From contig NZ_WWVR01000007.1 in NCBI RefSeq assembly GCF_009883055.1, positions 1-64,000 on the forward strand: a stretch of DNA of 64,000 nucleotides, written 5' to 3'. Origin of the DNA: Blautia sp. BIOML-A1 (GTDB lineage Bacteria > Bacillota > Clostridia > Lachnospirales > Lachnospiraceae). A program made the position numbers and the translations under genes. The notes beneath the pieces are model-generated. The model was given only the letters and a program-made list of their open reading frames with translations, had not been told where the DNA came from and did no database searches. This document shows, in pieces, positions 19,669 through 54,282 of this stretch (its first letter is position 1; every line of letters begins with the position of its first letter).

Positions 19669-19686
19669 GTTACTGTTCGCAGTAAC
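19669..19686. repeat. Hairpin resembling a deletion derivative of the mobile-element end
   Basis: GTTACTGTTCGCAGTAAC is a perfect 7-base-arm palindrome with a TTCG loop. It matches the outer bases of the 27718 element's right end joined to the inner copy, with the middle missing. It supplies the last codons and the TAA stop of the BaiN-like gene. Confidence 0.45.
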
Positions 19687-26432: not shown

Positions 26433-27632
26433 TCAATGAAAAAATTTTTCCGAAACATACTCCAGTACCCGAAAAAAGGTTCTACGCTCGATCGACTGTT
26501 CCGCCAGAACCGGGTAGGAGGCCAGAATCTGTCCGTCAAGCAAAAATGTCACCCTGCCGATCTTATCACGGCGCTTTACCGGAGCCTCAAGCATCTCTGG
26601 TACATTCATCCGGCATACAATCCTTTCATCGTCTGCAAGAAGTATCTGACTCTCCTTCTGTTCCGTGTCGACATCGGATATACCACGGATATACTGCACT
26701 CTTTTGGTGGGATCTTCCCGAAATCCGTTCTTTACCCGGATCAGTGGAATTTCCGGATCTTCCCACCAGCTTCGATAGTTATAATTTTTTTCTCCGTATG
26801 TAAGAAGTGCAGACGCATCCTTCCATTTATAGGTCTTATGGTCCGGCCATCCGCTCCCCAAAAGAGCAACGATAAAGGTTTTTCCATCTCTTTCTTCTGC
26901 ACACACATAACAGTATCCTGCATCTCCTGTATATCCTGTTTTTCCCGAAACTATCCCTTCCCGCATATCCAGAAATGCATTGGTGTTGTGGATCGAAAAA
27001 GTCCGCTTCTTCTGAATGTCCGAGAAAGAATATTCTCTGGTTTGTGTGATCTTAAGAAACATAGGATTCTGTATGGCATATCGCATGATCCGTGCCAGAT
27101 CTCTCGCAGTCGTATGATGTATCCCGCCGCTGTCTTTCGCGTCGAGGCCATTGGGTGTCACAAAATGCGTATCCGTACAGCCAAGCTCTTCTGCTTTCTG
27201 ATTCATCATCGCTGCAAATCCTTCTGTGGAACCTCCGATACGCTCTGCGATCGCAACCGCAGTATCATTATGGCTCTGCAGCATCAGGGAATATAAAAGA
27301 TCCTCAAGGTAATACTGTTCTCCCTCCCGGATTCCAAGACGTACCTCCGGCTGGGATGCTGCCCTTGAGGAAACCTGCACATAATCATCACCCTGTCCGT
27401 TTTCCAGCGCAAGGATACAGGTCAGGACCTTTGTGGTACTCGCATTCGGCCGCGGCGTTTCTCCTTCTTTTTCGTACAGAACTCTCCCGGAGTCCCCATC
27501 CATCAAAACAGCCGAAAGAGCATAAAGATTCCCCGGGGAGGAATCCGCCCCTGATACATCATAGACTACAGAATTCAGTATAAAAAATGTCAAAAGCACG
27601 ATTACGGCTGCCGCATGATATCTGCACTTCAT
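26433..27632 (-). CDS. D-alanyl-D-alanine carboxypeptidase, S11 family
   Basis: A 399-aa low-molecular-weight PBP that trims the terminal D-Ala of peptidoglycan stem peptides. Signal segment at residues 7-27; active-site motifs STTK (Ser65-Lys68), SHN (120-122) and KTGYTG (about 234). The C-terminal domain after about residue 290 is the beta-rich type of DacF/DacB proteins. A second paralogue lies at 31999-33201. The gene is downstream of the scp operon, separated by the mobile element at 27718-27859. Confidence 0.93.
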   Translation of the reverse strand: MKCRYHAAAVIVLLTFFILNSVVYDVSGADSSPGNLYALSAVLMDGDSGRVLYEKEGETPRPNASTTKVLTCILALENGQGDDYVQVSSRAASQPEVRLGIREGEQYYLEDLLYSLMLQSHNDTAVAIAERIGGSTEGFAAMMNQKAEELGCTDTHFVTPNGLDAKDSGGIHHTTARDLARIMRYAIQNPMFLKITQTREYSFSDIQKKRTFSIHNTNAFLDMREGIVSGKTGYTGDAGYCYVCAEERDGKTFIVALLGSGWPDHKTYKWKDASALLTYGEKNYNYRSWWEDPEIPLIRVKNGFREDPTKRVQYIRGISDVDTEQKESQILLADDERIVCRMNVPEMLEAPVKRRDKIGRVTFLLDGQILASYPVLAEQSIERRTFFRVLEYVSEKFFH

Positions 27633-27709
27633 ATTCCACCTCTTATTCTTGATAGAATATTTTATGCAGACCTGTCCTGACTATATTCCTGTTACCTGAC
27701 TTTCAGTGA

Positions 27710-27867
27710 AATTCAACGTAACTGTTCACAGGTAATATCCCGCGAGGTGTTTTGCCATGAATATGGCAAAATCTCGAGACATACGGGGCAAAATGCCATC
27801 ACCGAAGGTGATTTGGAATGCATTTTGACCAAGTTACTGTGAACGGAGTGAACAGTAACAATTCAAC
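27710..27867. mobile_element. 142-bp MITE-like element with perfect 8-bp target duplication
   Basis: The element spans 27718-27859. Left end GTAACTGTTCAC and right end GTGAACAGTAAC are inverted copies matching at 11 of 12 positions. Both sides are flanked by AATTCAAC (27710-27717 and 27860-27867), a perfect target site duplication. It has no reading frame of its own but contains three hairpins: TTTTGCCAT/ATGGCAAAA, CAAAATGC/GCATTTTG enclosing ATCACC/GGTGAT, and GTTACTGT/ACAGTAAC at the right end. The target site includes the phospholipase gene's stop codon, which the duplication preserved. IS66-family elements also use GTAA-like tips and 8-bp duplications, so that family is a candidate source of transposase. 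Confidence 0.85.
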
Positions 27868-28657
27868 CGCTATATGTCCTGTGCCATCTTTCGGAAAGAG
27901 GGCGGTCTTCTCTGGAAAGATCAAAAAGTTCTTCCAGATATCCGGGTGCTTCCCGGACTTCCCCTTCATAAAGTCCATATAAGTTGTGTACCGGAACTGC
28001 ACTTCCGGGAACCGGATCCTTCGCCATAAAATACTCCATCACAGAATCAGACAGCTTCCTGCCCGCGAGTCTGGAAATTACCGTGAGGAGTTTCTTTCGT
28101 CTGCCTTTATTATCATAGACCATACAGTTTGTGATAAATTTCATACGGCTTAAGGAAGTCAGGATCTCACCTGAGGTCACCTTCGGAATTGCCCGGTGGA
28201 TCACTCTGGCATAAGTGATTCTTGGTATCACACCACACGCCGGATAGTAATGATATGGATTTTTGTGCGTTTTCAGCATAAGCATCCGGTCAAATTCTTT
28301 CTCCAGAAGGGTATGCGTGATCACCTTTTTATCTGCCATATCCTCAATATAAGGATGGCAGGCACTGTCCAGAAGATAATGGCATCCGAACCCAAGCAGA
28401 TATGCCAGAAGTTTTTCATCATGTGTATCCCGCACAAGTGCCATGCCTCTTTCAAAAAAAGGAGCAGCTATTTCCTTGTGCATACGGATTCCGGTTTTGG
28501 ATACTTCCGGTTTCAGCATATGATAAAACAGAATATCCGGTCCGTGGAGACCGATCCTGTACAGATTGACATTTCTTCGGATGACCGTCTGCATCTCCAC
28601 CGGAAGTTCGTGATAAATCTTCTTGCCGAACAGATCATGTGCATACGTCGTAGGCAT
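27863..28657 (-). CDS. Zinc-dependent phospholipase C family protein
   Basis: A 264-aa protein of the zinc-dependent phospholipase C/P1 nuclease-like fold. Histidine and aspartate ligands are visible in MPTTYAHDLFG, GLHGPDILFYHM, MHKEIAAPFFERG and GFGCHYLLDSACHPYIED. There is no signal peptide, unlike the secreted clostridial alpha-toxins, so it is probably a cytoplasmic hydrolase with an unknown substrate and not a toxin. It follows scpB by 12 bases. Its TGA stop lies inside the target site duplication of the mobile element. Confidence 0.85.
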   Translation of the reverse strand: MPTTYAHDLFGKKIYHELPVEMQTVIRRNVNLYRIGLHGPDILFYHMLKPEVSKTGIRMHKEIAAPFFERGMALVRDTHDEKLLAYLLGFGCHYLLDSACHPYIEDMADKKVITHTLLEKEFDRMLMLKTHKNPYHYYPACGVIPRITYARVIHRAIPKVTSGEILTSLSRMKFITNCMVYDNKGRRKKLLTVISRLAGRKLSDSVMEYFMAKDPVPGSAVPVHNLYGLYEGEVREAPGYLEELFDLSREDRPLSERWHRTYSG

Positions 28658-31991: not shown

Positions 31992-31997
31992 AAGATT

Positions 31998-32013
31998 GTT
32001 ACTGCTCACTCCG
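31998..32013. repeat. Fragment of the mobile-element right end
   Basis: GTTACTGCTCACTCCG matches 15 of 16 bases of the right tip of the 27718-27859 element. It encodes the last residues (SEQ) and TAA stop of the D,D-carboxypeptidase gene. Confidence 0.6.
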
Positions 32014-47176: not shown

Positions 47177-47215
47177 TTTGTTTTTTTATTTATAACCCGG
47201 ATTCTCGCGGAATAT

Positions 47216-47281
47216 GTTACTGCTCACTCCGTTCACAGCAACTTGGTCAAAATACATTCCAAATCACTATCAAACAGTAAC
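47216..47281. mobile_element. Internally deleted copy of the mobile element
   Basis: A 66-bp sequence starting GTTACTGCTCACTCCGTTCA, then CAGCAACTTGGTCAAAATACATTCCAAATCAC, and ending CAAACAGTAAC. It keeps the right end of the 27718 element and a possible opposite tip, but lacks the middle. Flanking octamers CGGAATAT and CGTACATT do not match. It lies between the divergent yicC and rqcH genes. Confidence 0.6.
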
Positions 47282-51887: not shown

Positions 51888-51925
51888 CAAATTTCGTTCG
51901 ACAGAATCTGCCATTTCTTTTATCT

Positions 51926-51970
51926 GTTACTGTTCACTCCGTTCACAGTAACTTGGTCAAAATGCATTCC
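51926..51970. repeat. 45-bp fragment of the mobile-element right end
   Basis: GTTACTGTTCACTCCGTTCA then CAGTAACTTGGTCAAAATGCATTCC is identical to the right end of the 27718-27859 element over its whole length. The rest of the element is missing. It supplies the stop codon of the truncated adaptor frame. Confidence 0.8.
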
Positions 51971-52172
51971 AGCTGATCAGCCCGCATAACGCAGTGCTTC
52001 TATTCTTTACTTCTGTCTGCTGCACGTTGTCTGTTTCTGTGGCTGCTGCCATCGGCCGTCTCACTTTCCTGCAGACCACCGCTCCTGATGTTCCTGTCAC
52101 CGCCACAACAATGATCAGACTCAGGATTTTCTTTTTTTTAGATCTTTTCACTTTTCTTCCCTTTTGAAACAT
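51957..52172 (-). pseudogene. Truncated efflux adaptor-like gene (N-terminal remnant)
   Basis: A 71-aa frame with a very basic N-terminus (KVKRSKKKK), one membrane helix (about residues 17-34) and then AAATETDNVQQTEVKNRSTA. This layout matches the start of MacA/HlyD-type periplasmic adaptors of ABC exporters, which continue for 300 or more residues. Here the frame breaks off and its last residues (SWNAF) and TGA come from the mobile-element fragment. GGAGG at 6-base spacing shows an intact translation start. Downstream exporter genes are absent. The adaptor identity is an inference from the first 65 residues. Confidence 0.5.
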
Positions 52173-54152: not shown

Positions 54153-54255
54153 AAAATGCTCCTCCTGCCTGCATCTATATTTTCTCTTTTTACAGGATAA
54201 CGTATTTGGGAAAAATATTCCAGTTAATTATTTTAAGAGGGGGATTAGTTTTATT

Positions 54256-54282
54256 GTTACTGTTCACTCCGTTCACAGCAGC
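54256..54282. repeat. Fragment of the mobile-element right end
   Basis: GTTACTGTTCACTCCGTTCA followed by CAG matches the right tip of the 27718-27859 element for about 25 bases and then diverges. It lies 5 bases from the stop codon of the ABC permease gene. Confidence 0.6.

Follow-up and report, generated by a model that had tools for sequence, protein, structure and literature searches.

BOX, RUP, Correia and REP/REPIN repeats are short, intergenic and hairpin-forming, and they occur in many copies; in each of these general respects they resemble the family described here. Borrelia plasmids reportedly carry conserved RNA structure motifs and IS605 stem-loops, and their intergenic hairpin motifs are said to be discussed alongside transposable elements. 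Conserved intergenic hairpins are common to those plasmids and to our family, but Borrelia is another host and the element concerned there is IS605, not IS66.

MITEPsy1 and MITEPsy2, of 100 and 228 nt, contain no CDS and have terminal repeats like those of known IS, and MITEPsy1 duplicates its target (PMC3189936). Our family is likewise short and gene-free, with IS-like terminal repeats and a target duplication as in MITEPsy1; unlike it, MITEPsy1/2 are tied to IS5-like and Tn3-family elements, and the accessible text of that report mentions no covarying core. The interiors of MITEs are usually seen as remnants of the parent IS, both in general understanding and in the accessible part of the same report (PMC3189936). 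QMITE1 and QMITE2 of Coxiella are MITE families of ~50 copies and reported sources of small RNAs, with QMITE2 measuring 150–190 bp and carrying 7–11 nt repeats (PMC5896051). They differ from our family in host and sequence, and neither covariation nor an IS66 partner is mentioned in the portion of that report available to us (PMC5896051). As far as its accessible text goes, a study of ISDge4 describes the ISBst12 group, to which ISDge4 belongs, as having a single transposase ORF, and gives for ISDge4 the tips GTGACTACTCAGCA / GTAACTGCTCAGCA, an 8-bp repeat and one ORF (PMC12898284). The 8-bp duplication is found in our family too, the ISDge4 tips resemble GTAACTATTCAGAA seen here, and the candidate partner IS also have one large transposase ORF each, three of them with smaller ORFs upstream; unlike ISDge4 and IS66 elements, however, the MITE is gene-free and its core is missing from the eight IS bodies compared.

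Here we analyse one copy of this family in a 64,000-nucleotide stretch of Blautia sp. BIOML-A1 DNA (contig NZ_WWVR01000007.1, positions 1 to 64,000; hereafter the window), together with copies and a partner element sought in the genomes of relatives. The literature searches, which mostly did not reach subscription papers, found no description of the family. We think it probable that the element is a non-autonomous MITE moved by an IS66-family transposase, itself divergent and akin to those of the ISBst12 group, and that it carries a passenger module under selection for a folded core strand. Several gut bacteria each harbour tens of copies of this family, a source of insertion markers and of candidate regulatory changes close to many genes. 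As its interior is seemingly unrelated to the compared IS bodies and its pairing is kept, the family offers a system for testing whether RNA modules carried by transposons can be under selection.

The element in the window

The window copy is a 142-bp element at 27718–27859, flanked by a perfect 8-bp target duplication. Its parts are as follows, the strand given for the MITE being that of the core:

27710–27717, no strand: left copy of the target duplication, AATTCAAC
27718–27859, plus strand: 142-bp MITE
27718–27729, plus strand: left terminal inverted repeat, GTAACTGTTCAC
27737–27749, plus strand: conserved 5′ flank of P1, ATCCCGCGAGGTG
27750–27771, plus strand: P1 hairpin, TTTTGCCAT-GAAT-ATGGCAAAA (arms 27750–27758 and 27763–27771), its sequence varying among subfamilies
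27772–27784, plus strand: 3′ flank of P1, TCTCGAGACATAC (family consensus TCCCGAGACATAC)
27786–27830, plus strand: P2 hairpin, outer stem (arms 27786–27796 and 27820–27830) followed by inner stem ATCACC-GAA-GGTGAT
27833–27859, plus strand: P3 right-end hairpin, formed by the right tip with its inner inverted copy (arms 27833–27840 and 27852–27859)
27848–27859, minus strand: right terminal inverted repeat, GTGAACAGTAAC
27860–27867, no strand: right copy of the target duplication, AATTCAAC, within which the phospholipase C-like gene on the minus strand has its stop codon

The inverted ends are 12 bp long and complementary at 11 of 12 positions. No listed ORF of at least 80 aa overlaps the element, whose length could not accommodate a transposase gene. 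On each strand, 200 shuffles all folded less well (z −4.69 and −4.67). Its two neighbours are minus-strand genes, to both of which the copy is antisense (the −− context): on one side lies the 3′ end of the phospholipase C-like gene, on the other the start of a gene resembling D-Ala-D-Ala carboxypeptidase. The former gene, which ends at 27863, encodes a zinc-dependent phospholipase C domain (PF00882, E 1.1e-10); its TGA stop (27865–27863) falls within the duplicated 8 bp, and the gene thus keeps its stop and is intact. A preliminary description of the locus had proposed the 142-bp MITE-like element with its perfect duplication, the 11-of-12 match of the ends, the lack of a reading frame, the internal hairpins, the right-end hairpin built from an inner tip copy and the insertion at a stop codon that the duplication rebuilt, and our analysis recovered each of these. 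A consensus scan of 27600–27900, covering the window copy only, found neither a sigma-70-like promoter nor an intrinsic terminator, and a promoter or terminator role was set aside on this result.

Fixed flanks and swapped stems in the interior

The same layout extends across subfamilies: a tip, ATCCCGCGAGGTG, P1 (usually of the form TTTT...AAAA), TCCCGAGACATAC, P2 and the tip hairpin P3. Both halves of the P1 flank, with at most one change each, are present in 52 of 66 long aligned rows, around 28 different P1 sequences. The P1 arms TTTTGCCAT..ATGGCAAAA of the window copy are replaced in other copies by TTTTGGCAT..ATGCCAAAA, TTTTCATGCA..TGCATGAAAA, TTTTGGTAC..GTACCAAAA or TTTTTTGTGA..TCACAGAAAA, and the flanks themselves could pair as C-GA-GG / CC-GA-G, a predicted tandem G-A motif. 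The interior is a module in which fixed flanks surround the hairpins and the stem sequence is swapped while the pairing is kept. This conservation of structure across diverged subfamilies had been missed by the preliminary description, as had the lack of a shared core in the IS bodies compared.

Covariation was counted against a pairing structure drawn up manually from the element in the window, plus a covariance model. In a plain MAFFT alignment of 35 copies, double changes were found at 10 of 34 pairs (80 cells), compared with 1–3 pairs and 1–5 cells in slid controls; none of 500 shuffles attained the covariation score, and the number of further pair types was no better than in the shuffles (106 of 500 reached it). 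With alignments that lean towards the assumed structure, and with the proviso that adjacent pairs may change in a single event, the counts rose (i) to 32 of 34 pairs and 414 cells in 80 distinct model-fitted rows, truncated rows included (slid controls, 10–15 pairs and 18–44 cells), and (ii) to 56 double compensatory changes by parsimony on a 57-copy tree (slid controls, 1–4). The tree retained 57 of 81 rows, leaving out short rows, duplicates and rows on a list of our choosing; on it, pairing also survived 27 single changes, was broken 43 times and was restored 14 times. RNAalifold found almost no structure in a MAFFT alignment of 84 distinct bodies, a result that variable stems and gaps may explain, and the manual structure and the model took its place.

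With an E-value limit of 1, searches of Rfam 15 found nothing around the window copy. At the gathering score, 11 loci yielded only one T-box and one tRNA, both outside the matched element, and seven loci gave seven hits, none of which came near the gathering score. That the interior derives from an IS was rejected: the eight IS bodies lack the core motif, and none of the 15 best BLAST hits listed extends beyond 14–22 terminal bases. What seems to be new, then, is a MITE interior that is unrelated to its likely mobiliser and whose fold has been kept through many compensatory changes.

RNA or DNA as the folded molecule

A core strand that works as RNA should tolerate G-T over A-C on that strand. 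Counted in cells that are not independent of one another, G-T exceeds A-C in P1 (24:7), inner P2 (11:1) and P3 (20:9), and the opposite holds in outer P2, with 8 G-T against 35 A-C cells.

The orientation set comprised 86 copies from six single-contig genomes (core-regex matches with at least 900 bp per side; origin placed from dnaA, terminus assumed opposite). In element orientation, their contexts were ++ in 39, −+ in 26, −− in 15 and +− in 6, counts to which some copies may contribute in more than one genome by common descent. By a simple ORF heuristic, none of the 86 copies lay within a spanning ORF; an earlier run with 72 copies gave ++ 33, −+ 26, −− 9 and +− 4, with one copy flagged within an ORF. 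Of 54 copies between tandem genes, 39 have the core strand in sense orientation (p 0.0015), and 59 of the 86 copies are co-directional with replication (p 0.0007). When tandem pairs are separated by strand, 34 of 44 are sense on the leading strand and 5 of 10 on the lagging strand; 17 of 26 copies between divergent genes are co-directional (p 0.17). Because lagging-strand tandem pairs show no sense bias and copies tend to be co-directional, the effects of transcription and replication are inseparable here.

An RNA-level role has, in our judgement, about an even chance of being correct, its main rival being the maintenance of hairpins at the level of DNA. We are similarly balanced on its specific form, in which the fold of the core strand would be under selection, probably in RNA that arises when transcription of a leader or spacer includes the element. 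The rival reading takes the element as an ordinary IS66 MITE that has no RNA role, its hairpins being kept by template switching from one arm to the other (quasi-palindrome correction) or by cruciform or single-strand DNA in transposition or replication, and we place it somewhat short of even. Covariation does not tell whether a hairpin forms in RNA or in DNA. The inner arm of P3 duplicates the tip and changes along with the tip type, as seen at columns 122/144 of the plain alignment and 227/261 of the fitted one, and both the 59 co-directional copies and the A-C excess in outer P2 agree with a DNA-level process; copying of arms, however, does not predict P1 flanks that stay fixed while the stems change, and in three of four helices the wobble counts point to the core strand.

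A stronger version of the RNA-level reading is more tentative still, and we consider it rather unlikely. In it, an IS66-type transposase would spread a conserved RNA fold through Blautia and its relatives, often in sense orientation ahead of genes, and the core would act in cis on the downstream transcript or protect it. If so, this would be a bacterial element selected for an RNA fold that merely borrows the ends of a DNA transposon.

Target duplications and empty sites

Copies were taken as full-length when the match reached from base 8 or earlier to at least base 135 and was flanked by 12 bp at each end; one further copy (L203) fell out of this set. Among the 92 distinct full-length copies, the window's included, the duplication is perfect in 48 and matches at no fewer than 7 of 8 positions in 70, compared with 0.06% and 0.34%, respectively, when flanks from different copies are paired. 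The A+T content is 71% at duplicated sites and 66% in left flanks.

Both genes that flank the window copy are present at 31 of 33 loci in relatives (29 distinct places); none of the 31 contains the core, and at one of them a lone tip-like match is seen. For two other copies, close genomes supply both the filled and the empty allele. A copy in G064 has GTTTGCGAT on each side, and G065 has one GTTTGTGAT, an empty site; G027 also lacks this copy, but with a small deletion at that place. A copy in G027 has GGATGATG on each side, and G064 and G065 have GGATGATG once, as empty sites. Copies within and between G064, G065, G027 and G017 are 97–99% alike. The element is a MITE that has transposed: it is short, has inverted ends and no transposase gene, and its dispersed copies show duplications and empty sites.

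The preliminary description had proposed looking for dispersed copies, their flanks, empty sites and an autonomous element, and all four were found, the last in sister subfamilies. Neither of the outcomes it had named as contrary, copies without duplications or empty sites and a position conserved across genera, arose in the material examined. REP/IS200-type elements make no target duplication and use an HUH transposase; such an identity is ruled out here by the 8-bp duplications and the DDE candidate partner.

Within the Blautia genus group, 31 of the 64 genomes contain PF03050 (IS66) matches, and G001, G003, G065, G041 and G046 have MITE copies and no such match; in the copy-rich G001 and G003 the copies may therefore be stranded. 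This circumstance, the absence of spanning ORFs around the 86 copies (one of 72 in the earlier run) by the same heuristic and the tendency to sit in sense ahead of downstream genes would suit a regulatory repeat adopted by the host and no longer mobile, with duplications left by a past burst. We hold that account to be improbable, as it sits poorly with perfect duplications in over half of the full-length copies, with the near-identity of copies in the four genomes named above, with filled and empty alleles in close genomes and with the lack of the core at all 31 junction loci.

A candidate IS66-type partner

Matching tips were sought among IS66-domain loci only. Paired ends and a duplication could be scanned for at 49 of 51 loci, two being too short, and the flanks were too short for some canonical IS66. 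Ten of the 49 have ends inverted at 13–14 of 14 positions and an 8/8 duplication, and nine of these ten, representing six element types, have MITE-like tips:

L122: tip GTTACTGTTCACAC, 2253 bp, duplication TGCTTTTC
L121: tip GTTACTTTTCACGG, 2399 bp
L120: tip GTAACAGTTCAGAT, 1893 bp
L115: tip GTAACTATTCAGAA, 1696 bp, transposase frame broken
L091: tip GTAACAGTTCAGCC, 1835 bp
L083, L090, L092 and L094: tip GTTACTGTTCAA, 2237–2242 bp

GTAA tips are the rule for the IS66 family. L115, L120, L091 and the left end of the window copy start with GTAAC, and L122, L121, L083, L090 and many MITE copies with GTTAC. In the 15 best hits listed, the sequence shared by MITE and IS tips amounts to 14–22 terminal bases: L122 and L115 agree with the MITE at 14 of 14 positions, and L083 over 17 bases at 94%. 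The exact tip of the window copy is absent from all IS66 elements found among relatives. L106, a canonical IS66 with GTAAGCG tips and an 8/8 duplication, was excluded as the partner by its tips.

Each IS has one large ORF; smaller upstream ORFs are present in L121 (124 aa), L122 (137 aa) and L090 (54 aa), and for L120 only ORFs of at least 150 aa were listed. All four large transposase ORFs tested passed the PF03050 cut-off and, at 136.5–153.7 bits, none reached the cut-off of 180 of the NCBIfam IS66 equivalog NF033517. Judged by these two profiles, the candidate partner transposases appear divergent and would be IS66 members at best of that kind.

The link to IS66 that the preliminary description had proposed from the tips and duplication is upheld by these loci, and mobility by an IS66-type transposase is very likely. 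An IS66-family DDE transposase of a divergent, ISBst12-like kind would mobilise the MITE in trans, recognising tips such as GTTACTGTTCAC / GTAACTATTCAG and cutting the target with an 8-bp stagger, and repair of the gaps would yield the duplication. The interior, ATCCCGCGAGGTG ... TCCCGAGACATAC around P1, then P2 and P3, would be carried as a passenger module that does not come from the compared IS66 elements. It is highly improbable that the element was moved by some non-IS66 transposase with the same 8-bp target stagger and that the IS66 tips match by chance: the best listed hits share only 14–22 terminal bases, but nine IS66-family loci combine such tips with 8-bp duplications, and several of their tip variants parallel MITE variants.

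Distribution and variant copies

The right-end 27-mer occurs four times in the window with at most three mismatches, this element included, and in none of 100 shuffles. A degenerate 37-bp right-end pattern matched nine stretches in the genome collection, eight from three Blautia genomes and one from [Ruminococcus] faecis; these four genomes have 37, 9, 29 and 3 element matches, respectively, partial ones included. In the Blautia genus group, 33 of 64 genomes have a match. Beyond the group the family is sparse, yet present: the exact core pattern was found in 4 of 299 genomes sampled from the family, three of which (G167, G201 and G302) are outside the 64, and the covariance model with stricter filters in 6 of 246 sampled from the order, two of which are within the 64. 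Match counts by the model in 16 chosen genomes ran from 1 to 69, G167 having the most (69) and G201 having 60.

Plasmid records gave no match to the family, and viral contigs none to the 27-bp right-end pattern. Six unannotated ‘Bacteriophage sp.’ records match the family, the best one being marked UNVERIFIED; near full-length copies with 83–85% identity are present in the short records MT839053.1 and MT839183.1.

Partial copies were also observed. Other right-end fragments lie on the minus strand of the window at 47210–47267, 51925–51971, 54253–54278 and 31995–32013 (matches of 19–58 bp). The possibility that window fragments (at 19669, 31998, 47216, 51926 and 54256) are small elements with their own duplication found no support, as the 7/8 or 8/8 repeats within 3 kb did not adjoin a tip. 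Among the matches listed for G001, 14 partial ones are right-end, four left-end and one middle. At L156 and L184 the left flank of the copy ends in GTTACTGTT, as if inserted in the tip of another copy. The stretch 1–1154 of L345 occurs at no fewer than 10 places in G017 with 97–99% identity and is probably another mobile element.

Several copies depart from the common layout. A 55-bp version at L061 1486–1540 consists of only the tips and the tip hairpin, lacks P1 and P2 and has a perfect duplication, AGAACTGT, from which it follows that the core was not needed at that site; L267 has the same 55 bp and flanks. A 233-bp version at L053 1501–1733 (reverse complement) has ~90 extra hairpin-rich bases after P2 and the duplication GATTTATA, and L278 shows the start of this extra insert. 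Four 146-bp elements in G518 (L386, L388, L391 and L394) have similar tips, P2-like and P3-like hairpins and a different P1 region, with an 8/8 duplication in all four, and by this combination the modules seem exchangeable.
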